The translations under genes were made by a program, and so were the position numbers. From Oscillospiraceae bacterium (lineage in GTDB: Bacteria > Bacillota > Clostridia > Oscillospirales > Oscillospiraceae), in assembly GCA_015067995.1 (NCBI GenBank), contig SVLJ01000007.1, positions 40,403 through 104,402 of the forward strand: a stretch of 64,000 nt of DNA. The letters are read 5' to 3'. The notes below the pieces were generated by a model, which worked only from the letters and a program-made list of their open reading frames with translations, did no database searches and was not told the origin of the DNA. Position 1 is the first letter of the stretch; each line of letters starts with the position of its first letter. This document shows positions 7,872 through 32,310 of this stretch, in pieces.

Positions 7872-8285
7872 TTATGCGATGGGGCGGGGACGGGGATTGA
7901 CGATGAGGCGCCAGTCCAGATCGCCGCGAGACAGCCCCAGAATCAGCATTTCTGCTGTGGCAATGTTGCTGGCGAAGGGAATGTTGTGCTGGTCGCACAG
8001 GCGGGAAATATAAGGAACATCCGACTGCATGGCATCGCTGTTGGGATCGCTGAAAAACAGGACCATATCAAACTCGTCGTAGGCGATGCGGGCGCCGATT
8101 TGTTGGCTGCCGCCATGGGCGTAGGACAGGAAGCAGTGAACATTCAGGCCGGTAGCTTCAGCGACCATATGACCGGTGGTGTTGGTAGCGTACAGGCTGT
8201 GACGGGACAGAATTCCGGCATAGGCTGTGCAGAACTGGACCATCAATTCTTTTTTGTTGTCGTGGGCCATAAAAGCGATGTTCAT
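7872..8285 (-). CDS. mgsA: Methylglyoxal synthase
   Basis: MNIAFMAHDNKKELMVQFC, ATNTTGHMV, LSYAHGGSQQIGARIA, FFSDP, IPFASNIATAEML. Confidence 0.93.
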   Translation of the reverse strand: MNIAFMAHDNKKELMVQFCTAYAGILSRHSLYATNTTGHMVAEATGLNVHCFLSYAHGGSQQIGARIAYDEFDMVLFFSDPNSDAMQSDVPYISRLCDQHNIPFASNIATAEMLILGLSRGDLDWRLIVNPRPRPIA

Positions 8286-8307
8286 GGGCGGGGATGACTC
8301 CTTTCTT

Positions 8308-9069
8308 CTATTTGATACGCAAGAGTGGAACCCGTTTGCCGGCAATGCGGGCTGCTATGTTCTTATATGCCTGGCCGGCCAGGTTGGAGGAGGTCAGCAA
8401 CAGAGGAACGCCGCGGTTCAGGGCGAGAATCAGCTGGTCATCCTCCGGAACGACGCCCAGAAGCGGCAGTCCTGCCGTGTCAATGGCGTCATCAATGGTG
8501 GCGTGCATGCTTCGAAGCATCTTTTTACGCACGCGGTTTACCACCAGGTGCAGAGAGCCTCTGGGGAAGCGATTCAACTCCATAACGGTATGCTGTGCGT
8601 CCCGGAGAGCGGTGGAATCCGATGTAGTGACCACGATGCAGCGGTCGGGACAGCAAGTAGCCACGGAAAAACCATAGCCAAGGCCTGCAGATGCGTCCAG
8701 CAGGCAGAAGTCGAACTGGCGGCGCACCTGATCCAGAAGAACCATCATCTCATTCGCTGTCAGTGGTGTACCCAGCATTCGGGCAGGTGCTGTCAGCAGA
8801 TAGAGATTTTTGATGCGAGGGTGTTCCACAACAGCAGAAGCCAGATCGCAGCGGCCCTGAGCTACATCAAAGAAATCCATCAAGGCCATATCGGCCAGGC
8901 CAAGGGCCAGATCCAGATTTCGCAGCCCCACATCACAGTCTATGCATAATGTGCGATAGCCCAGCATGGCCAGCGCCGAGCCGACGCCGGCGGTAAACGA
9001 GGTTTTTCCCGTGCCGCCCTTGCCGGAGACGATGGCGATACACTGTCCGTTTCGATTTCCATAGTCCAT
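8308..9069 (-). CDS. minD: MinD/ParA-type ATPase (septum-site determining MinD)
   Basis: Deviant Walker A SGKGGTGKTSF; CIDCDVGLRNLDLALGL; adjacent to mgsA. Confidence 0.82.
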   Translation of the reverse strand: MDYGNRNGQCIAIVSGKGGTGKTSFTAGVGSALAMLGYRTLCIDCDVGLRNLDLALGLADMALMDFFDVAQGRCDLASAVVEHPRIKNLYLLTAPARMLGTPLTANEMMVLLDQVRRQFDFCLLDASAGLGYGFSVATCCPDRCIVVTTSDSTALRDAQHTVMELNRFPRGSLHLVVNRVRKKMLRSMHATIDDAIDTAGLPLLGVVPEDDQLILALNRGVPLLLTSSNLAGQAYKNIAARIAGKRVPLLRIK

Positions 9070-9095
9070 GACGGGGCCTCCTTTCGGTGTGGTTT

Positions 9096-9791
9096 TTACA
9101 GGGGAGATTTTTTGATTTTGGCAAATGCACGCGGATACTTGGCGGGAGAGGGTGCGACCTTTTCGATGACTACCAGTCGGTGCGTGACCTGCGTGCCGGG
9201 GATCTGATAGTCCTTCACTTCCGCCAGGCGGCCGCCCAGCACACGAATGGCATGGGCGGCAGACGCCAGTTCCTCGTCGCTATCCACTGCTTTCATTGGC
9301 AGAAAGTATCCGCCTATCTTTACCAGAGGAAGACTCAGCTCCGCCAGCATGGGAAGAGATGCCACGGCCCGGGAGGTGGCAATATCGTAGCTCTCCCGAT
9401 GGCTGGCGGCAAACTCCTCCGCACGGGCATGAATGCACTCCACGTTCCCCAGCCCAAGCTGATCGCATACGCCCTGCAGGAAGGTGATGCGCTTGCCCAG
9501 AGAGTCCAGCAGCGTCAGCCGGATGGACGGCTCGAGAATCCGCAGGGGCATGCCGGGAAAGCCGGCGCCGGTACCCACGTCCACCACCTGCTTCCCGGCA
9601 AAGTCCGCCAGTGTCAGCAGGGCGGCGCTGTCCAGAAAATGCAGGGTGGCTACGTCGGCCGGGTCGGTGATAGCAGTGAGATTCATGACCTTGTTGGTCT
9701 CCAGCAGCGCATCGGCATACTGCAGAAGAGCATCTACATGCGCTGTGGGCAGATGCAGCTGGGAGAGACCGGCGGTGAGCAGTTGTTTCAT
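9096..9791 (-). CDS. rsmG: 16S rRNA (guanine-N7)-methyltransferase RsmG
   Basis: VMNLTAITDPADVATLHFLDSAALL, VDVGTGAGFPGMPLRI. Confidence 0.95.
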   Translation of the reverse strand: MKQLLTAGLSQLHLPTAHVDALLQYADALLETNKVMNLTAITDPADVATLHFLDSAALLTLADFAGKQVVDVGTGAGFPGMPLRILEPSIRLTLLDSLGKRITFLQGVCDQLGLGNVECIHARAEEFAASHRESYDIATSRAVASLPMLAELSLPLVKIGGYFLPMKAVDSDEELASAAHAIRVLGGRLAEVKDYQIPGTQVTHRLVVIEKVAPSPAKYPRAFAKIKKSPL

Positions 9792-9830
9792 GGCGGTATC
9801 CTTAATGATTTCAGATGTGAGCAGGGAAGA

Positions 9831-10298
9831 TTATTTCTGAGCTTTCAGCAGATCGCGGATCTCGGTGAGCAGCTTCTCCTCGGCAGAGGGCTCGGGAGGT
9901 GCGGGAGGTGCGGGGGGTTCAGCTGCGGCTTCTTCCTCTTCCTTCTTACGCAGCTCCTCGGCCTTGGCGTGCATGGCGTTGATGGCTTTGACTATGCAGA
10001 AGACGGCGAAAGCGACAATAATGAAATCGAGGATGATGGCAATGGTGTTGCCGTAGCGGATGGCAACTTCGGCGGCCTTTACAGCGCCCTCGGCATCCAG
10101 AACGGCCTCTTTGAGGACGATCTTCCAGTCCTCAAAAGCGATGCCGCCGGTGAGCATGCCGACCACGGGCATGATGATGTCGTTGACGATGGAGGTGGTG
10201 ATCTTGCCGAAGGCACCGCCGATGACAACGCCGACCGCCAGGTCAATCACGTTGCCGCGCATTGCAAATTTCTTGAATTCTTCGAAAAATTTCTTCAT
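9831..10298 (-). CDS. mscL: Large-conductance mechanosensitive channel
   Basis: [40 protein letters not shown]. Confidence 0.95.
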
Positions 10299-10389
10299 GT
10301 GTAAGTGCTCCTCTCTCTTTTTTGTAAAAATCTATAAACAAACAGTATTATTCTATATCTATAATACCATCTGTTTTCAACAATGGTGG

Positions 10390-11694
10390 TTATTTGCAGG
10401 GGGTCAGGACTTCCTTGCCGCCCACATAGGGACGCAGAGCAACGGGGATCTTCGCGCTGCCGTCGGCCTGGAGGTTGTTTTCCAGGAAGGCGATGAGCAT
10501 GCGGGGAGGCGCTACCACAGTATTGTTCAGGGTGTGGGGCAGGTACAGCTTGCCGTCGGCGCCCTTGATGCGCACCTTCAGGCGGCGTGCCTGAGCATCG
10601 CCCAGATTGGAGCAGGAGCAGACCTCAAAGTACTTCTGCTGACGGGGAGACCATGCCTCGATATCGCAGGACTTGACCTTCAGGTCGGCCAGATCGCCGG
10701 AGCAGCATTCCAGCTGACGGACGGGGATGTCCAGAGAGCGGAACAGCTCCACGCTGTAGCGCCACATCTTCTCATACCAGTTCATGGAGTCCTCGGGCTT
10801 GCAGACCACTACCATTTCCTGCTTCTCGAACTGATGGATGCGGTAGACGCCGCGCTCCTCGATTCCGTGGGCACCCTTTTCCTTGCGGAAGCAGGGAGAG
10901 TAGGAGGTGAGGGTCTGGGGCAGGGAGCTCTCGGGAATAATCTGATCGATAAACTTACCAATCATAGAATGCTCGGAAGTGCCGATGAGGTAGAGGTCCT
11001 CACCCTCGATCTTGTACATCATGGCATCCATTTCGGTCTGGCTCATGACGCCCTCCACCACGTTGCCGTGGATCATGAAGGGCGGAATGCAGTAGGTGAA
11101 GCCCTTGTCGATCATGAAGTCACGGGCATAGGCCAGCACGCCGGAGTGCAGACGGGCAATATCGCCCACCAGATAATAGAAGCCGTTGCCGGAGACGCGG
11201 CCGGCAGAATCCATATCCACGCCGTTGAAGGACTCCATGATCTGGGTGTGGTAGGGGATCTCAAAGTCGGGAGTCACAGGCTCACCGAAGCGCTCCACTT
11301 CCACATTGAACTCGTCGCTCTCGCCGATGGGGACAGAGGGGTCGATGATGTTGGGGATCACCAGCATGATCTTGCGGACAGCCTCGTCCAACTCGACCTC
11401 CAGCTTCTCCAATTCGGCCAGACGGTCGGCGTTGGCCTTCACCTGTGCCTTCACGGCCTCGGCCTCCTGCAGCTTGGAGGGGTCCTTCTTGGCCTGCCCC
11501 ATGAGCATGCCGATCTGCTTGGAGAGGGTGTTGCGGCTGGAGCGCAGATTGTCGGCCTCCACGATGGCGGCACGGCGCTGAGCGTCCAGAGCGATCACTT
11601 CGTCTACCAGAGGAAGCTTTGCGTCTTGGAACTTCTTTTTGATGTTTTCCTTGACGATTTCCGGGTTCTCGCGAATAAATTTGATGTCAAGCAT
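10390..11694 (-). CDS. serS: Serine--tRNA ligase
   Basis: MLDIKFIRENPEIVKENIKKK; YSPCFRKEKGAHGIEERGVYRIHQFEKQEMV. Confidence 0.97.
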   Translation of the reverse strand: MLDIKFIRENPEIVKENIKKKFQDAKLPLVDEVIALDAQRRAAIVEADNLRSSRNTLSKQIGMLMGQAKKDPSKLQEAEAVKAQVKANADRLAELEKLEVELDEAVRKIMLVIPNIIDPSVPIGESDEFNVEVERFGEPVTPDFEIPYHTQIMESFNGVDMDSAGRVSGNGFYYLVGDIARLHSGVLAYARDFMIDKGFTYCIPPFMIHGNVVEGVMSQTEMDAMMYKIEGEDLYLIGTSEHSMIGKFIDQIIPESSLPQTLTSYSPCFRKEKGAHGIEERGVYRIHQFEKQEMVVVCKPEDSMNWYEKMWRYSVELFRSLDIPVRQLECCSGDLADLKVKSCDIEAWSPRQQKYFEVCSCSNLGDAQARRLKVRIKGADGKLYLPHTLNNTVVAPPRMLIAFLENNLQADGSAKIPVALRPYVGGKEVLTPCK

Positions 11695-11801
11695 ACGTAA
11701 GACTCCTAAACGAACATATATTTTTGGGGGTTAAAAAGTGCCGGAATTGGCACGATTAAACGGTTTCGTTAGAACAAATAGGGAGGTTGTACTAAATAAT
11801 T

Positions 11802-11900
11802 CCGACGCAAACCATCGTCAGCGTTTGCGGAGGAAAGAGGCGATGCAATGGAATGAGTGAGCTTTGCCCCGTGGGGCGAAGCGAAGGATACGGAATCTGC
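11802..11900 (-). repeat. Structured repeat element copy B, upstream of serS
   Basis: Aligns with 7457-7553; hairpin GCTTTGCCCC-gt-GGGGCGAAGC differs from copy A by paired changes. Confidence 0.7.
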
Positions 11901-11909
11901 AGCGCCGAC

Positions 11910-11925
11910 TGTTTCACGTGAAACA
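11910..11925. promoter_or_regulatory. parS centromere site 1
   Basis: Exact TGTTTCACGTGAAACA palindrome about 0.6 kb from parB. Confidence 0.95.
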
Positions 11926-11928
11926 TCA

Positions 11929-12531
11929 TCACTCTGCGGGAGCCGCTGCCAGAAGCTTTGCCTGCTGGAACATCTGTTGAGGAGAGATGCCGCCGGGAGA
12001 ACTGGCTGCGGCAGGAAGAAACTTGTCCAGTCCGGTAGTCTCCATATCCGCAATGATCTTCCGACAGGAGGCGGTGTCACCGGCGATCAGTAATTGCTGC
12101 AGCTGTGTCAGCGCGTCCACAGCGGAGCTGGTCTTTTGCAGAGCTTCCCATGCGTTTTCCAGCTCGGTCAGAGATTTGTCCAGAGCGGAGATTTTTTCCT
12201 TAAGCTGGGTTTGTGCGCCTTCGGATGCCGCCAACTCTTTTTTCAGATCTTCCATCTGGCGTTTTTGAGCATCCACCTGTTCCTGCAGGCGGACGTTTTG
12301 CTCCAGAGCGGATTGGAGTTTTTCCAGATTCGTGGCATTGGCGTGCAGTTGCCCCAGAACCTGTTCATTGCTGCGCTGATGGGACAGAAACGACAGCGTC
12401 ATCAAAAAGAATGCGGCAATGAACAGAATGAGAATATAAATCAAAACGTGACTTCGCCCTTTACGGGCACAGCCGTTTTCCGCAGCCTTCGGCACCTGAC
12501 AGGCATCCGAGCTGCGTTTTTCAAGTTTCAA
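11929..12531 (-). CDS. Hypothetical single-TM coiled-coil protein
   Basis: 200 aa; HVLIYILILFIAAFFLMTLSFLS TM segment then heptad-like KLQSALEQNVRLQEQVDAQKRQMEDLKKEL. Confidence 0.75.
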   Translation of the reverse strand: MKLEKRSSDACQVPKAAENGCARKGRSHVLIYILILFIAAFFLMTLSFLSHQRSNEQVLGQLHANATNLEKLQSALEQNVRLQEQVDAQKRQMEDLKKELAASEGAQTQLKEKISALDKSLTELENAWEALQKTSSAVDALTQLQQLLIAGDTASCRKIIADMETTGLDKFLPAAASSPGGISPQQMFQQAKLLAAAPAE

Positions 12532-12564
12532 TGGAATCGGTCCTTTCTTCCGAATATCAGTAAA

Positions 12565-13443
12565 TCAGTCGTTCTGTTTTTTGATTTGAAGCAGCGCGAG
12601 AGCATCCAGAAGATCGTTCAGATCGTCCATGCCGTAGTATTCCAGTTCGATACGACCTTTTTTCTTGCCGGAAATAATCTTTACACTGCGTCCCAGCTGG
12701 GAGGAAAGGGTTTTCTGGACTTCTGCGGCATAATCTACCTGATTGGGATCAGGCTCCTTGGAGGGCTTCTTTTCTGTGCCCAGCTTTTTTGCCAGAGTTT
12801 CTGTCTGCCGGACCGATAAACCGCCGGAGAGTACTGCGGCGGCGGCCTTTACCTGCAGAGCAGGGGAGAGGGGAAGCAGTGCCCGGGCATGGCCTGCGGA
12901 GAGCTTTCCTTCTTCCACCATGGCGCGAAGAGGGGGACACAGGGAAAGAAGCCGGATGGCATTGGTAACCGCACTGCGAGATTTGCCCACCCGTTTGGCG
13001 GCCTCTTCCTGCGTCATATGGTATTGATCAATCAGTGTCTGATATCCGGCGGCTTCCTCCATAGGATTCAGATCTTCCCGCTGAAGATTTTCGATCATGG
13101 CCAGCTCGGCGGCTTTTCGATCGTCAGCTTCCACCACAATCACCGGAATTTCACGCAGTCCGGCAATCCGGGCAGCTCGCCAACGGCGCTCGCCTGCAAT
13201 AATCTGGTAATAACCGGAGGAGAGCTTGCGAACCGTCAGCGGCTGGATGATGCCGTGTTCGCGAATGGAGTCTGCCAGATCCTGCAAAGCACTTTCATCA
13301 AAATGCTTGCGGGGCTGTGAAGAACAGTTTTCTACCTGTGAAATGGGCACTGAAAGAGAGCCGGAGCTGCCGGACTTCTCGGCTTCATCACCCAGAAGGG
13401 CTCCCAGACCTCTGCCGAGGCCGGAGGGCTTTTTGGTTGCCAT
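12565..13443 (-). CDS. parB: Chromosome partitioning protein ParB/Spo0J
   Basis: KPSGLGRGLGALLGD, QPRKHFDESALQDLADSIREHGIIQPLTVR, GERRWRAARIAG, NLQREDLNPMEEA. Confidence 0.96.
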   Translation of the reverse strand: MATKKPSGLGRGLGALLGDEAEKSGSSGSLSVPISQVENCSSQPRKHFDESALQDLADSIREHGIIQPLTVRKLSSGYYQIIAGERRWRAARIAGLREIPVIVVEADDRKAAELAMIENLQREDLNPMEEAAGYQTLIDQYHMTQEEAAKRVGKSRSAVTNAIRLLSLCPPLRAMVEEGKLSAGHARALLPLSPALQVKAAAAVLSGGLSVRQTETLAKKLGTEKKPSKEPDPNQVDYAAEVQKTLSSQLGRSVKIISGKKKGRIELEYYGMDDLNDLLDALALLQIKKQND

Positions 13444-13465
13444 GGGTAGGCCTCCTTTCAGGATT

Positions 13466-14221
13466 TTACGGGTTTTTGCTCAAAAATTCTTGTGTAAAGG
13501 CGCTGTAGGCTTCCGCGCCGCGGGATGTACGGTCATAGGCATAGATGGGTTTGCCGTGGCTTGGTGCTTCCGAAAGCCGTACGTTCCGGGGGATGATGGA
13601 GGAAAATACTTTGCCGGGGAAGTAGTGCTTCACTTCCTGAGCTACCTGCATGGCCAGATTGGTGCGGCCATCGTACATCGTCAGCAGGACGCCTTCCAGT
13701 TCCAACTTTGGATTCAGGGAGCGTCGGACAATTCGGACAGTATTCATCAGGTCGCTGAGGCCCTCCAAAGCAAAATACTCACATTGAACCGGAACAAGGA
13801 TGCTGTCTGCAGAACAAAGCGCATTCAGAGTCAGCAATTCCAGAGAGGGAGGGCAGTCGATGAGAATATAATCATACCGGTCTGCTACCTTCTCCAGAGC
13901 GGAACGCAGCAGATATTCCCGGTTTTCCATTCCAATCAGCTCGATGCCGGCACCGGCCAGCGCTTTGTTGGAGGACAGAACATCGCCGAATTTCGAGCGG
14001 GTGATGGCATCCTCTGTATCTACAAGGCCGACAAGTACTTCATAAACACCCTTGGAAAGGGTTTTGTCCACACCCATACCGGAGGTGGAATTGGCCTGCG
14101 GGTCGAAGTCGCACAGCAGTACACGTTTTCCGGCATTGTGCAGACCAGCTGCCAAATTCACACAGGTGGTGGTTTTGCCCACGCCGCCCTTCTGATTGAC
14201 GATAGCAACAGTCTTTGCCAA
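13466..14221 (-). CDS. parA: Chromosome partitioning ATPase ParA/Soj
   Basis: VAIVNQKGGVGKTTTCVNLAAGL; LLCDFDPQANSTSGMG. Confidence 0.96.
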   Translation of the reverse strand: MAKTVAIVNQKGGVGKTTTCVNLAAGLHNAGKRVLLCDFDPQANSTSGMGVDKTLSKGVYEVLVGLVDTEDAITRSKFGDVLSSNKALAGAGIELIGMENREYLLRSALEKVADRYDYILIDCPPSLELLTLNALCSADSILVPVQCEYFALEGLSDLMNTVRIVRRSLNPKLELEGVLLTMYDGRTNLAMQVAQEVKHYFPGKVFSSIIPRNVRLSEAPSHGKPIYAYDRTSRGAEAYSAFTQEFLSKNP

Positions 14222-14332
14222 AGAATCACCTGCTTTCTGAAATGGTAGTTATCCAATTTGACATTATAGCAATTCCCTTCGACAGTTGCAATAAGAAACG
14301 GAAAATCTGCATCAAGAAATCTAAAAAACACC

Positions 14333-14372
14333 CGGCAATGTTTCACGTGAAACATTGCCGGGTGCGAATATA
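14333..14372 (-). terminator. Intrinsic terminator of the GH13 gene containing an embedded parS site
   Basis: CACCCGGCAATGTTTCACGTGAAACATTGCCGGGTG perfect palindrome followed on the minus strand by TTTTTT. Confidence 0.8.
14339..14354. promoter_or_regulatory. parS centromere site 2
   Basis: Exact TGTTTCACGTGAAACA just upstream of parA. Confidence 0.95.
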
Positions 14373-14374
14373 TC

Positions 14375-16249
14375 TCAGGTGGTGTAAATCGTAACCGAAC
14401 GAGGCTGCATGGTGACAGAAACCTTTTCACTGCCGGAAACGGCCAGCTGGCCGGTAAAGGCGTCCAGAAGAGGCTTGCCGGACCAGGAAAATTCAATATC
14501 TGCGGAGGCATCGCCGGCATTCAGGATCACCACGGTGGATTCCTGCTCACCCTCTCGGAGATAAGCCATCGCGCCGCGATTGGTGTGCAGCCAGCGAAAT
14601 TTTCCGTTTTGCAGGGACTTCAACCGACTGCGAAGCCGACCAAGGGTGAAAAACCAGGATTGCAGCTGCAGATCCTCCTTGCCCCAGGGATATGTCTGAC
14701 GGCAGAAGGGATCTTCAAAGCCTTGTGCGCCGCATTCATCGCCGTAGTATACCGTGGGACAGCCGGGGAAGGTATACAGCAGAGCGGCACCTACCCGCAG
14801 GCGTTCGGCACCACGCTGATACTCGGCGGGAGAGAGGCGATAAAGGGAGCGGGCTTCCTTGGTTTCCGGGGTTCGTTCAGCACCCAACAGCGTCAAAACA
14901 CGGGCGGTGTCATGGGTGCCCAGGAAGTTCATTGCCGAATAAAAAGCGGGCGGAGGATAATTCTCGCGAATGGCTTCCATGGCCTGACAGAAATCCTCAC
15001 CACTGCCGCCCTGCAGCCAGTTCAGCGCCGCTGTACGGAAGGGATAGTTCATCAGACCGTGGGTTTCGTGTCCCAAAAGGTATTTGCGGCGTCTGGAGTA
15101 GGCAATTTTCGTGGTGCCATCCTCCCAGACCTCGCCCAGCAGTAGTGAGTCGGTCTTTGTTTCCTCCATGGCGGTGCGAAGATTGGCAATAAATTCATCC
15201 GGCAGCTCATCGGCCACGTCCAGACGCCAACCATCGGCACCGCGGCGCAGCCAGTGACGCACCACGGAATCCTCATCACCGTAGATAAAGCGCTGATACT
15301 CGGGATTGTTTTCTTCCACAGCCGGCAGTGTCATAATGCCCCACCAAGCTTCGTAATCCGTAGGCCAGGTTTTGAAACGGAACCAGTCGTACCATGGAGA
15401 ATCCTTGCTTTGAGCAGCGCCTGACGTGGGATAGAAGCCGTCGGCGTTGAAATACAGGCTTTGAGAACCAATATGATTAAATACACCGTCCAGAATTACT
15501 CGCATGCCGCGCTGATGACAGCTGTCGCATAGAGCACGGAAATCCTCCTCGGTACCCAGCATGGGGTCGATCTTCCGGTAATCCGCAGTGTTGTAGCGAT
15601 GATTGGAGGCTGATTCAAAAATCGGACAAAGATACAGCGTAGTGATACCCATACTCTGCAGGTAATCCAGCTTGGCACGGATACCCTCCAGAGATCCGCC
15701 AAAAAAGTCGCGGTTGCGTACTTCGCCGTCAGAATCCGGCTTCCAGACCATGGACTCATCCCAGTTTTCATGCACCCATCGATTGCCGATCATGCCCTTG
15801 GGATCGGGCGTGGACAGTCTATGGAATCTATCTGGAAAAATCTGGTATGCAATGCCGCTGCCGAACCATTGCGGAAACTGGCTTTCATCATAAACGGTCA
15901 TCTGCCAGACATCACGGGCATAGCCGTCGGAATGATATCCGGCGCGATCCAGCATGGTGATGGAACCGTCGGCTTTGGTAAGCCGGAAATGATACCAGAC
16001 CAGCTCAGGCTGACTGGGCGCGGTAAATTCCAGATCAAAACGCGTGCGGTCACCTTCCACGGAACCCATTGTCAGGGTGTATTCCCGTCGCTGGCCGGAA
16101 AATTCCTCCAGCAGCAGCAGAGTACAGCCGGTAAATTTTTCGCGTGTCAAAGGACGGACGTGGAGCGTGACCTTGCTGCCGGTGACGACAGCGCCAAAAG
16201 GCTGCTTGCAAAGCTCGTGGCGGGGATCAAAAACAAAGGGTTCACTCAT
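14375..16249 (-). CDS. Glycoside hydrolase family 13 protein (neopullulanase/maltodextrin glucosidase-like)
   Basis: IYQIFPDRF, GVFNHIG, GWRLDVADELP, LLGEVWED, NFLGTHDTARVL. Confidence 0.92.
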   Translation of the reverse strand: MSEPFVFDPRHELCKQPFGAVVTGSKVTLHVRPLTREKFTGCTLLLLEEFSGQRREYTLTMGSVEGDRTRFDLEFTAPSQPELVWYHFRLTKADGSITMLDRAGYHSDGYARDVWQMTVYDESQFPQWFGSGIAYQIFPDRFHRLSTPDPKGMIGNRWVHENWDESMVWKPDSDGEVRNRDFFGGSLEGIRAKLDYLQSMGITTLYLCPIFESASNHRYNTADYRKIDPMLGTEEDFRALCDSCHQRGMRVILDGVFNHIGSQSLYFNADGFYPTSGAAQSKDSPWYDWFRFKTWPTDYEAWWGIMTLPAVEENNPEYQRFIYGDEDSVVRHWLRRGADGWRLDVADELPDEFIANLRTAMEETKTDSLLLGEVWEDGTTKIAYSRRRKYLLGHETHGLMNYPFRTAALNWLQGGSGEDFCQAMEAIRENYPPPAFYSAMNFLGTHDTARVLTLLGAERTPETKEARSLYRLSPAEYQRGAERLRVGAALLYTFPGCPTVYYGDECGAQGFEDPFCRQTYPWGKEDLQLQSWFFTLGRLRSRLKSLQNGKFRWLHTNRGAMAYLREGEQESTVVILNAGDASADIEFSWSGKPLLDAFTGQLAVSGSEKVSVTMQPRSVTIYTT

Positions 16250-16288
16250 GGATGGAGGTTCTCCTTTCGGTGGGCGGGGATAAAAATA

Positions 16289-18388
16289 TCAGGGGATCAG
16301 CTGGTTTTCTCCGATGATCGCACCGTCGGTTTGATCTGCGGTGAACCATGCGTTGAGGATTTCCACAGCGGTGGAGGCCAGCGCACTGCCGGAGCCACCT
16401 TGCTCAATGACGATGGCCACGGCAATCTCCGGATCATCATAAGGGGCAAAACAGACGAATACGCCGTTGTTTTCCGAGTCGCCACCCAGCTGGGCGGTGC
16501 CGGTTTTGGCACCGGCATCCACCACGCAGTCCTGGAAATAGGAGGCGAGGCTGCCGGAGGTGGTTAGCTTGTACATGCCGGTTTTTACGGCGTTCAGAGT
16601 GGAAGGCGCCATTTCAACTGAGTTCACCGGTTTGTCAGGCTGGGTATAGAGCACCTGACTTCTGTCGTAAGTGGAAACCTCTTTCAGAAGATGCGCTTCG
16701 TAGTGCTCGCCGCCGGATACAAGTGTGGCAATGTAGTTGGCCAGCTGCAGAGGAGTAAACAGATTGTAGGATTGGCCGATGGCGGCAGCAATGGTCTGAC
16801 CGTCAGACCACGGTTTACCGGCTTCCCGACAGTAGTCGGGACCGGCCAGAACACCGGCCCGGTCACCGATCTCAATGCCTGTGTGCTCACCCAGTCCGAA
16901 GGCTCTGGCATACCGGTTTAGGGTGGAAATGCCTGTCAGACGGCCTACTTCATAGAAAAAGTAGTTGCAGGATACATTGATGGCATCCACCACATTGATG
17001 GAGCCGTGTGTGCCCCTGTAGGAATTGTAGATCCAGCAGGCGGGCTGATAGGTGGGGGCATAGTAGGTGTAGCGGCCCAGAGTCTTGATTTTCTGGGCGG
17101 GGGTGATGACGCCGCTTTCCAGTGCAGCCACCGCTGTCAGCGGCTTGAAAGTAGAACCGGGGGGATATGCGCCCTGCGTGGCGCGGTTCAGCATGGGATT
17201 GGCGGGGTTGGCCATCAATTCGTTGAAATCCTGATTATAGGTGGCCAGATGGAAGGTGGGATATGAGGCCAGAGAAAGCACCGCGCCGGTGCCGACCTCT
17301 ACCACGGCGACACCTGCGCCGCGCTTTTCGTTGCCGTCCTCCTCGCTCATGCGGGAAACGGTGGCGGCCAGCGCCTCTTCCACAGCCTGCTGGAAATCCA
17401 GATCAATGGTCAATTCCACCGTGCTGCCGGGCTGCGGTTCCTTGGTGTAGTACTGCTCGGTGATCTTGCCGTCGCTGTTGGTGGAGTACACCTGCTTGCC
17501 GTCCGTACCCTTCAGATAGGACTCGAAGGCGGCCTCCGCACCGGAACGGCCAATGATGTCGTTGTAGGCGTAACCCTGCTCCTTCAGCTCCTGCGTGTAG
17601 TTTTCAATGCCGCCCACGGTGCCCAGAATATGAGCCGCATAGTCGGTTTTATATTCGCGGGCGGCAGAGGAAACAATGCTGGCACCCAGATAGCTGCCGT
17701 CCTTGATGAGAGCCAGCAGGCCGGTATCCAGATCGCGCAGCATAATGTAATCAGTGGTATTGATCAGCTGACGGATGGTCAACTCATAGAGGACGCCCAG
17801 TACATCCCGGATGTCCTGCGTGGTCCATGCATCGGGGATGGCATATGCCGTTCGCATTTCTGCCATCAGCACATTGGCGGAGAGTCCTGCTGAGGTCAGC
17901 GATTCCCCGGACAGGTCGGCTGTGGTCAGGGTAGGTGAAACCAGCTTCAGCTTTTCCCGCAGGAAGGTGACGAAGCGGCTGCGCTGTGTGGAGCCGATAT
18001 CCTCCAGCAGATAGGTATACGGCCATGCTCTTGAGACAGGGAGGTTGTCCTCCCATTCCAGTCCCTGACTGCGCAGCAGCTGTACAAGACGCAGAACGGC
18101 GGTGTTCAGGTCATCTTCTTTATCCAGTGCGGCGGTATCAAATGTCAGGTCATAGGTCTGACGGTTGCCCACCAGCACCTGGCCGTTGCGGTCGGTGATG
18201 ATGCCGCGGGAGGCTTCCACCGTCCGTGTTTTGGTGATGGTGTGCACAGACTGCTCCAGATATTGGCCGCCATTGGTGATCTGCGTGTCATACAGCACAC
18301 CGACAAAGGCTGACAGAACCATGAGAAAAAAGCACAGCAGAGCAGCTATGCGTCTTCGATGCAGTTTCGGGGAGTCTTGTTCAAGCAT
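16289..18388 (-). CDS. Penicillin-binding protein 2 (class B PBP, transpeptidase)
   Basis: 699 aa; EASRGIITDRNGQVL, YPPGSTFKPLTA, SCNYFFYEVG, GAKTGTAQLGG; next to mreD/mreC. Confidence 0.92.
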   Translation of the reverse strand: MLEQDSPKLHRRRIAALLCFFLMVLSAFVGVLYDTQITNGGQYLEQSVHTITKTRTVEASRGIITDRNGQVLVGNRQTYDLTFDTAALDKEDDLNTAVLRLVQLLRSQGLEWEDNLPVSRAWPYTYLLEDIGSTQRSRFVTFLREKLKLVSPTLTTADLSGESLTSAGLSANVLMAEMRTAYAIPDAWTTQDIRDVLGVLYELTIRQLINTTDYIMLRDLDTGLLALIKDGSYLGASIVSSAAREYKTDYAAHILGTVGGIENYTQELKEQGYAYNDIIGRSGAEAAFESYLKGTDGKQVYSTNSDGKITEQYYTKEPQPGSTVELTIDLDFQQAVEEALAATVSRMSEEDGNEKRGAGVAVVEVGTGAVLSLASYPTFHLATYNQDFNELMANPANPMLNRATQGAYPPGSTFKPLTAVAALESGVITPAQKIKTLGRYTYYAPTYQPACWIYNSYRGTHGSINVVDAINVSCNYFFYEVGRLTGISTLNRYARAFGLGEHTGIEIGDRAGVLAGPDYCREAGKPWSDGQTIAAAIGQSYNLFTPLQLANYIATLVSGGEHYEAHLLKEVSTYDRSQVLYTQPDKPVNSVEMAPSTLNAVKTGMYKLTTSGSLASYFQDCVVDAGAKTGTAQLGGDSENNGVFVCFAPYDDPEIAVAIVIEQGGSGSALASTAVEILNAWFTADQTDGAIIGENQLIP

Positions 18389-18424
18389 GGAGAGCCTCCT
18401 GTGGGAGTCGCAAGGGGGGAACCA

Positions 18425-18940
18425 TCAGTCATACACGTGGCAGATCTCATGGATCCGGCGGAAAACCAAATAAACAGGGATGAGAAACGGCAGGGATGAG
18501 CCCGTTTCCCGTATGGCCAGAGACATCGCGGTGGACATGGCATGCCGACTACCGGTGAGTGCCAGAAGCAGGCAGTGAAAGCCGTCTGTCAATACAAACG
18601 CCAGCACGGACAGCAGACAGGCGCACCAGAAACCCATGGGGATCCAGTTTTTCGATATCAACCCTGCCAGCATGCCGATGATGGGGAAGACCAGCGTGTA
18701 AAAACAGGGGATAGGCGCGGCGATGGTCAGATCACAGACAACGCCCAGCACCAAGGCGCAGATGCTGCCTGCGAGGGGCCCCTCGTACATGGCAATAACG
18801 GCTGCCAGCATGGGAAACACAAAAGGCATGACCCCAAATATGTCCAGAAACTGCAGTGCCACGCCGTGCAGCATCCAGCAGATCAGCACGCCGGATGCGT
18901 ACAGCAGCCATTTGAAAAGGATTTCTGTTCTGCCAAGCAT
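18425..18940 (-). CDS. mreD: Rod shape-determining protein MreD
   Basis: 171-aa multi-TM ORF between mreC and PBP2. Confidence 0.85.
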   Translation of the reverse strand: MLGRTEILFKWLLYASGVLICWMLHGVALQFLDIFGVMPFVFPMLAAVIAMYEGPLAGSICALVLGVVCDLTIAAPIPCFYTLVFPIIGMLAGLISKNWIPMGFWCACLLSVLAFVLTDGFHCLLLALTGSRHAMSTAMSLAIRETGSSLPFLIPVYLVFRRIHEICHVYD

Positions 18941-18976
18941 GGCAGCTCCTCTCTTCCGGCGGAATTCTGCCGGATA

Positions 18977-19816
18977 TCAGGTGACGATGTCGAAGGATTT
19001 GATGATAAAGACTTGCTTCAGCTCATCCAGCTGCGCAGAGGGCTTCACCACTGCGAACCGAGTGGAGCCGGAGTCATCCAGCTGCAGGGATTCCACCTTG
19101 CCGATGACCAGATCGGCAGGATAGTAGCCGCCAAGACCGGAGGTGACTACCAGATCGCCGATCAGCAATTCGCAGTCGGCGGGAAGATAGGTAAGGGAGA
19201 GCCTCCCCTCGTTCATCAGCACAAAATCGCCCTGTGCCACAGCTACGTCACCGGAACGGAAGACCAGTGCGCCCAAAGAGGTGTCGGTGTCCAGTACGGT
19301 CAGGACGGTACACCAGTTCAGTCCCACTTCGGTGACGATACCTGCCAGAAATCCCTCTTCCGTTACCACACAGTTGTTCACTGCAACGCCGTGGAGTGTG
19401 CCGCGGTTCAGCGTCAGGGAGGAGATCCAGTTGGAACTGGATTGCTGGGTGATGTTGGCGGCTTCAAACTGGAAATCCCGGCGCTTTTCACGCAATTCCA
19501 GCAGTTTCCGCAGACGGGCATTCTCTTCGCTGTCATCCTTGGCCAAACGCATTTCGCGCTCCATCTCAGCGATCTGGTTGCGCAGAGCCTGGTTCTCTTC
19601 CAGCAGCGCCTGATTATCGGCAAAATACGCCTGTTGTTCGGTTGCCCAGTTAGCCAGCGCACTGTACGCGTTGCGGAAAGGGGAGGAGAGAACTCCTGCC
19701 AGATTGACCAGCGGAGAGGATGTGCTGGCAAAAAAGGACATGACGGCCAGCGCCACAGCAATGACCGCCGTGGCGAACAGAATCCAAAGACCGTAATCCT
19801 TCAAGAACTTCTTCAA
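18977..19816 (-). CDS. mreC: Rod shape-determining protein MreC
   Basis: N-terminal TM, coiled coil, NRGTLHGVAVNNCVVTEEGFLAGIVTEVG. Confidence 0.92.
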   Translation of the reverse strand: MKKFLKDYGLWILFATAVIAVALAVMSFFASTSSPLVNLAGVLSSPFRNAYSALANWATEQQAYFADNQALLEENQALRNQIAEMEREMRLAKDDSEENARLRKLLELREKRRDFQFEAANITQQSSSNWISSLTLNRGTLHGVAVNNCVVTEEGFLAGIVTEVGLNWCTVLTVLDTDTSLGALVFRSGDVAVAQGDFVLMNEGRLSLTYLPADCELLIGDLVVTSGLGGYYPADLVIGKVESLQLDDSGSTRFAVVKPSAQLDELKQVFIIKSFDIVT

Positions 19817-19848
19817 GTGCCAACCTCATTTCCCATCAGGAGGGTTAC

Positions 19849-20424
19849 TTAGAGCAGCTTTACGCCGAAATGCTCCAGCATGCGGCTCAGCCGCAGTACA
19901 GGCAGACCCATTACATTATAATAATCGCCGTGGATTCCCTCCACCAGCAGACAGCCAAGCCCCTGAATACCGTAGGCACCGGCCTTGTCCATGGGTTCGC
20001 CGGTGCGGATATAGCTGAGCAGTTCCTGCTCCGTGGCGGCGCGGAAAAGTACCTCTGTGGTTTCACACTCCGTGAGCGTTTCGTTGCCCCGACATACCGT
20101 CACGCCGGTACAGACGGTGTGGCCACGACCCTGCAGAGCCGTGAGCATTCGCAGAGCGTCCGCCTCATCGGCAGGCTTGCCCAGCCGCACATGATCCAGA
20201 AAAACCATGGTGTCGGCTGTGATACAGATCTCATCGTCGGCACACAGTTTCCTGCCGGCCAGCGCCTTCTTACGGGAAATCCGCTGCACAGTTTCCTGTG
20301 CAGTCAGTCCTGCAGGAACAGATTCGTCTGCATCAGGAATACGAATGTCAAAATCTGAGATGCCAATGTGTCGAAGCAGCTCCTGGCGCCGGGGCGATGC
20401 GGAGCACAATACAATTTTAGCCAT
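19849..20424 (-). CDS. maf: Maf family nucleotide pyrophosphatase
   Basis: KIVLCSASPRRQELLRHIG, ITADTMVFLD, KAGAYGIQGLGCLLVEGIHGDYYNVMGLP. Confidence 0.95.
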   Translation of the reverse strand: MAKIVLCSASPRRQELLRHIGISDFDIRIPDADESVPAGLTAQETVQRISRKKALAGRKLCADDEICITADTMVFLDHVRLGKPADEADALRMLTALQGRGHTVCTGVTVCRGNETLTECETTEVLFRAATEQELLSYIRTGEPMDKAGAYGIQGLGCLLVEGIHGDYYNVMGLPVLRLSRMLEHFGVKLL

Positions 20425-31417: not shown

Positions 31418-32230
31418 TTACAGTTCTGCTGGTTTTCGCACAGCTTTTGGGATTCGGAGAGTCAGAAGAATGGCATCCTCTGTATCCTCGCGGCTGCTCT
31501 GTGCATCTACACCGGCGCTGCGTATCATCTGCAGACCACGATCCACACTGTTGAGGAACAGCCGTACGTCTTTGATGATATATGTACGCCGTCCGGCAGG
31601 AGGTGTGGTTTGCAGAGCCTGCAGACGGGATTCAATATATCGCTCTGTCTGAGCCACGTTCAGTTCCTTCTCCGTGATGTGCCGCAGCGCTGCCAGCCGC
31701 TCCATTTCATCCTCCAGCCGCAGCAGCGCCCGGGCATGGCGTTCGGAAAGGTGATGTCTGATAATGAGCGCGGTGCAGTCCGGAGACAGGCGGCGCAGGC
31801 GCAGCTTATTGGCCACGGCGGAAGGAGAGCGCCCCAGTTTTTCCGCAGCTTCCTCCTGGGTCATGCCGCCGGAATGGATCAGAGCGGCCAGAGCGTCCGC
31901 TTCTTCCAGAAAATGCAGATCCTGACGCTGCAGATTTTCCAACAGCGCCAGCAGGGCGGACTCCTGGTCGTCGATGCGGATGGGAATGCAGGGAACTTTG
32001 GTGAGCCCTGCCAGCTTGGCTGCCCGCAGTCTTCGTTCACCTGCCACCAGCTCCCATGTGCCGTTGGTGCGGCGAACCGTCAACGGCTGCAGAATGCCGT
32101 GATGACGAATGGAGGCGGACAGCTCATCCAGTGCCTCCGGATCAAAGGTGCGCCGCGGCTGATTTGGATTGGGCAGAATTCTCCCTATAGGCAGGTAAAT
32201 GATCTCCCGCCGGGCATCATGTTCACTCAT
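31418..32230 (-). CDS. noc: ParB/Noc-type nucleoid occlusion protein
   Basis: IGRILPNPNQPRRTFDPEALDELSASIRHHGILQPLTVRR; GERRLRAAKLAGL; HTH GMTQEEAAEKLGRSPSAVANKLRL. Confidence 0.8.
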   Translation of the reverse strand: MSEHDARREIIYLPIGRILPNPNQPRRTFDPEALDELSASIRHHGILQPLTVRRTNGTWELVAGERRLRAAKLAGLTKVPCIPIRIDDQESALLALLENLQRQDLHFLEEADALAALIHSGGMTQEEAAEKLGRSPSAVANKLRLRRLSPDCTALIIRHHLSERHARALLRLEDEMERLAALRHITEKELNVAQTERYIESRLQALQTTPPAGRRTYIIKDVRLFLNSVDRGLQMIRSAGVDAQSSREDTEDAILLTLRIPKAVRKPAEL

Positions 32231-32310
32231 ATCGGTACCCCCGCAGTTCATTGGTTTCCTTCATTGTAGTCCGGGTATACAAAAAAGTGTGGCGAAGGCT
32301 GTCGAAGGGC

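Follow-up and report, generated by a model that had tools for sequence, protein, structure and literature searches.

DNA uptake sequences (USS/DUS) lie inside intrinsic terminators in Neisseria and Pasteurellaceae (PMC1852404, PMC2397512), where two copies of a non-palindromic motif, repeated genome-wide hundreds of times, pair together. By comparison of their features, these terminators seem the closest published parallel to the element described here. In both cases a short DNA-transaction motif is reused as the stem of a Rho-independent terminator (a predicted one in the present case), the T-runs are oriented like the upstream gene and the same argument of evolutionary economy applies. The present element differs from USS/DUS terminators in that a single palindromic parS would form the upper stem, and the lower stem would come from arms whose sequence varies freely. 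Instead of hundreds of paired copies, the draft genome holds two exact parS sites, one of which is involved. Like ordinary chromosomal parS sites of the ParB/Spo0J system, the site has the exact 16-bp consensus, adjoins parAB and is accompanied by a parS-type ParB, whereas ordinary sites, including the second copy in this genome, mostly lack complementary arms or a T-run. With ordinary Rho-independent terminators it shares a GC-rich lower stem, a U-tract, a position just past a stop codon and a covarying stem. It departs from them in that its stem, 16-17 bp around a 4-nt loop, is unusually long, and in that the upper stem and loop are frozen because they are parS. Both parS and the intrinsic terminator are textbook elements, and their fusion and its recurrence appear to be unreported: we found no earlier report of parS inside a terminator in the open-access literature.

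The window analysed, that is, the whole stretch of 64,000 nucleotides of an Oscillospiraceae genome, carries on its minus strand, in this order, mreC, mreD, PBP2, GH13, the hairpin, the parA promoter, parA, parB, a small coiled-coil ORF, a second parS, serS, mscL and rsmG (mreD, serS, mscL and rsmG are named by their translated ORFs and position, with no profile match behind the names). The features relevant to the argument are the following.

14375-16249, minus strand: GH13 alpha-amylase-family gene (Pfam PF00128, E=4e-55)
14329-14364, no strand: palindrome made of a parS core and 10-bp complementary arms (sequence, fold, terminator scan)
14339-14354, no strand: exact parS, TGTTTCACGTGAAACA, the centre of the palindrome (16-bp consensus match; parS-type ParB in the same operon)
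14355-14364, minus strand: 5' arm of the predicted terminator stem, CACCCGGCAA on that strand (pairing, fold; covariation in relatives)
14329-14338, minus strand: 3' arm of the predicted terminator stem, TTGCCGGGTG on that strand (pairing, fold; covariation in relatives)
14323-14328, minus strand: predicted U-tract TTTTTT abutting the stem, read from 14328 to 14323
14263-14291, minus strand: predicted parA promoter, TTGCAA, 17 bp, TATAAT, with TG before the -10 box (kept in nearly all genus members)
13466-14221, minus strand: parA (Soj family)
12565-13443, minus strand: parB (Spo0J family), whose two parS-type specificity positions carry R and G
11910-11925, no strand: second exact parS, an internal control without complementary arms or T-run

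The palindrome, CACCCGGCAATGTTTCACGTGAAACATTGCCGGGTG, is perfect over 36 bp. A preliminary description of this DNA had placed it at 14333-14372, about 4 bases too high, and had called it perfectly self-complementary, with an exact parS in its central 16 bp, outer arms building a strong GC stem and a minus strand running into TTTTTT. Apart from the coordinates, all of this was borne out: the minus-strand RNA folds with -33.6 kcal/mol (z = -9.1). Exact parS occurs in two copies in the window, which are also the only ones in the 2.3 Mb draft genome (91.6% complete), and 0.04 matches would be expected in the window by chance. The copy in the palindrome has the marks of a chromosomal parS, with exact consensus, adjoining parAB, and rsmG, mscL and serS nearby. 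It also has a fitting ParB. Specificity for parS is marked by R173 and G201 (Caulobacter numbering; PMC7383237), and the GKSR and AGHAR motifs of the window ParB supply this R and G, as judged by eye against the same paper. The window encodes a second ParB-family protein (31418-32251, minus strand) with K, R and R at other diagnostic positions but P where Noc has Q; those three residues make it look Noc-like in the same by-eye reading.

The second parS sits 3' of parB; a parS at the equivalent position, about 2200 bp past the start of parA, occurs in most members of the genus. Other genera in the family carry a weakly similar ORF (about 30% identity) in the position of the small coiled-coil ORF between parB and serS (11929-12531, minus strand).

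As an RNA element, the palindrome offers a stable GC-rich hairpin abutting a U-tract, 10 nt past the GH13 stop codon and in the direction of transcription. It ranked clearly top among 13 terminator-like candidates in the 12 kb from 8000 to 20000. For the second parS, at 11910, the fold is no more stable than that of shuffled DNA (z -0.2 to -0.5). The plus strand 3' of the palindrome, CGAATATA, has no T-run, so any terminator here would be one-directional. From these features, the hairpin most likely ends the GH13 transcript. Its end lies about 37 nt ahead of the parA -35 box, and the end of the parS core 47 bp ahead; genus-wide, the nearest parS typically ends 30-50 bp ahead of that box.

A random inverted repeat that happens to surround parS and to precede A-rich DNA would give the same appearance, the more so as parS is itself palindromic and any added symmetry looks striking. 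The chance of 10 more perfectly paired positions per side of an existing 16-mer is about one in a million. Near-identical arms (at most 3 mismatches), searched in 86 genus genomes, matched in the source genome only. We compared the locus among 57 genus genomes with a parA locus and, as a hold-out, among 23 more from the genus. In both sets, almost every genome with enough flank to judge has GH13 ahead of parA on the same strand, and in the relatives too parS occupies the gap between them. All 88 parS upstream of parA were taken, with no selection, and in the null the left and right flanks were exchanged among sites. Of these sites, 31 had perfect arms that were 4 bp or longer, against 2.2 expected (maximum 7), and 27 had arms of at least 6 bp, against 0.6. 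In the hold-out, arms of at least 6 bp occurred at 13 of 38 upstream parS (0.38 expected). These swap nulls refute chance symmetry at the genus level; with the nulls of the family and class samples given below and the repeated compensatory change in the arms, we leave it next to no probability.

In 28 of the 57 genomes the best terminator in the gap was centred on parS. In another 20 it was a separate hairpin, whose tail often reaches parS, and in 9 none was found. The fused form was also present in 12 of the 23 hold-out genomes. At the 28 fused sites every pair holds (100%) through 82 double-sided changes, and covariation is 0.608 against 0.117 when shuffled; these sites were chosen for pairing, so that a fair comparison comes from the swap test on unselected sites. 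Stem retention through compensatory change, as in an ordinary terminator, was thus seen in the genus comparison and in the hold-out. The preliminary description had staked its reading partly on arm complementarity in relatives. Complementarity did persist there with differing arm sequences, but it is missing from roughly half the genus, for the most part in genomes where a separate hairpin terminator stands in for the arms. The fused form is therefore not indispensable. On the GH13, ParA and ParB tree its distribution takes about 12 parsimony changes, fewer than the shuffled mean of 19 but clearly more than one; the fused state has been gained or lost several times.

In many relatives the GH13-parA gap contains two parS in tandem, spaced by about 35-57 bp (e.g. 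L113-L116, L180, L197), one of them fused to a terminator and the other free. In relatives G033, G048, G015 and G002 (L121, L174, L195, L188) a separate GC hairpin lies between two parS sites, and as its T-rich tail enters the next parS at TTGTTTC, parS seems to contribute part of the U-tract.

The arms could also serve DNA rather than RNA, as an extended parS for ParB, as a site for another DNA-binding function or as a cruciform, the likeness to a terminator being incidental. The palindrome is indeed perfect as DNA, and an A..T pair adjoins the 16-mer in 24 of 25 fused sites. The arm sequence is nevertheless free to vary, with 22 distinct left 6-mers in the 28 fused sites, and arms are rare at parS outside the gap upstream of parA (2/55, neither accompanied by a T-run on the GH13/parA strand; hold-out 1/21). 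T-runs next to armed upstream parS are one-sided, 25 on the GH13/parA strand against 1 on the other, although a few arm-bearing sites, such as those of G090 and G359, have a weak T-run or none. The three wobble mismatches in the arms, a small number, are all G.U on the T-run strand and never A.C, that is, in the RNA-compatible direction only. Arms and separate terminators also exclude each other: the stretch from GH13 to the parA promoter contained a further terminator in 0 of 28 fused and 18 of 28 non-fused genomes (Fisher P=1.2e-7; the species are related, so that the counts and this P overstate independence and the true P is weaker). The other 10 non-fused genomes had no detected terminator at all, and the sensitivity of the terminator scan is thus limited. 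As the arms vary, are absent at other parS and have a one-sided T-run, we reject an extended parS or cruciform as their main cause, and consider a DNA-level function to be highly improbable. At fused sites, arm positions 2-7 have a GC content of 76%, compared with 50-54% at other parS, which is the profile of a terminator stem base. The best explanation of the outer arms is that they form the lower stem in a predicted intrinsic terminator.

We think that the palindrome is very probably a composite, a chromosomal parS core within an intrinsic terminator that would halt GH13 transcription before the parA promoter. The co-evolution of the arms, the strand of the T-run, the GC-rich lower stem, the either/or pattern of terminators and the recurrence make this dual use well supported at the level of sequence, and the comparative evidence lends strong support to the core claim of the preliminary description, which had proposed that one sequence is both parS and GH13 terminator upstream of parA. 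The DNA itself shows the palindrome with its T-run, where it lies, how its arms evolved as pairs, and the either/or pattern with other terminators. From standard knowledge, ParB would load at the 16-bp core. At the end of the GH13 transcript, parS would supply the loop and upper stem of a hairpin whose lower stem is made by the GC-rich arms, and hairpin and U-tract would then stop transcription ahead of the parA promoter. We infer both RNA 3' ends and ParB occupancy at the palindrome. The likely origin is economy, as the short GH13-parA gap must house both parS and a terminator. A parS is already a 6-bp stem with a 4-nt loop, and the addition of a GC-rich base and a T-run would turn it into a terminator. 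What such a terminator would shield lies downstream: the parA promoter and also, in many relatives, another parS at a distance of 30-57 bp.

RNA polymerase must traverse parS to form the hairpin, so that parS itself would be unshielded from GH13 transcription, and it pauses directly after the hairpin. The preliminary description further proposed that ParB binding could influence termination and that a cruciform or hairpin could influence ParB loading. The passage and pause of polymerase, and a core ending 47 bp ahead of the parA -35 box, would favour cross-talk, in which parS-bound ParB alters termination (as a roadblock or by anti-termination) and ties ParB level to parAB readthrough, or GH13 transcription evicts ParB. 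A precedent exists in P. aeruginosa, where ParB at the intergenic parS3/parS4 represses adjoining promoters (PMC7022226, PMC5521831). Nothing in the sequence requires cross-talk, however, and half of the genus keeps the two functions separate. ParB-CTP clamps are described as leaving parS by sliding (PMC7053999, PMC9242446), which argues against a stable roadblock. We regard cross-talk as rather unlikely. It is equally doubtful that parS-centred terminators are a recurrent device of Clostridia coupling ParB loading and termination, in which ParB would tune parAB readthrough or a pausing polymerase would time the loading.

The composite element itself has counterparts outside the genus. Arms of at least 7 bp flank 15 of 109 parS in a family sample of about one genome per genus (null 0.2) and 9 of 92 in a class-wide sample (null 0.17). 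Among 20 family and class loci viewed in context, most hairpins lie about 6-50 nt past a stop codon and upstream of parA, the preceding gene being GH13 in some and another gene in others. At position 3586 of L220 (G197), parS lies between convergent genes by the end of parB, with A and T runs on both sides (AAACAAGAGCGAA / TTCGCTCTTGTTT), as expected for a predicted two-way terminator. By these sequence features, the predicted parS-terminator fusion recurs across further genera and families of the class, also behind genes other than GH13. In 34 genomes, nearly all outside Clostridia, arm-bearing parS were few (a Pseudomonadota MAG with A/T runs on both sides, Gallionella, Holdemania and, with 5-bp arms, Paraburkholderia) and their contexts mixed, so that we confine the claim of recurrence to Clostridia. 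Arrays of parS repeats, an unusual clustered centromere, were seen in Bacilli MAGs (G317:C80:7875-8128, G317:C76, G316:C48 and G319:C10, reached through L089, L066 and L102), regularly spaced at about 39 bp, 63 bp or 54 bp.

In summary, our results suggest that a bacterial centromere sequence can double as a functional RNA element, and that in related gut bacteria evolution would have fused the two functions repeatedly, with differing arms, where the upstream gene meets parAB. In fused species, deletion of parS would alter transcription too, and changes in the arms would alter transcription with the ParB core untouched. Species with fused and with separate elements thus offer a natural set for asking how polymerase traffic and ParB loading interact.
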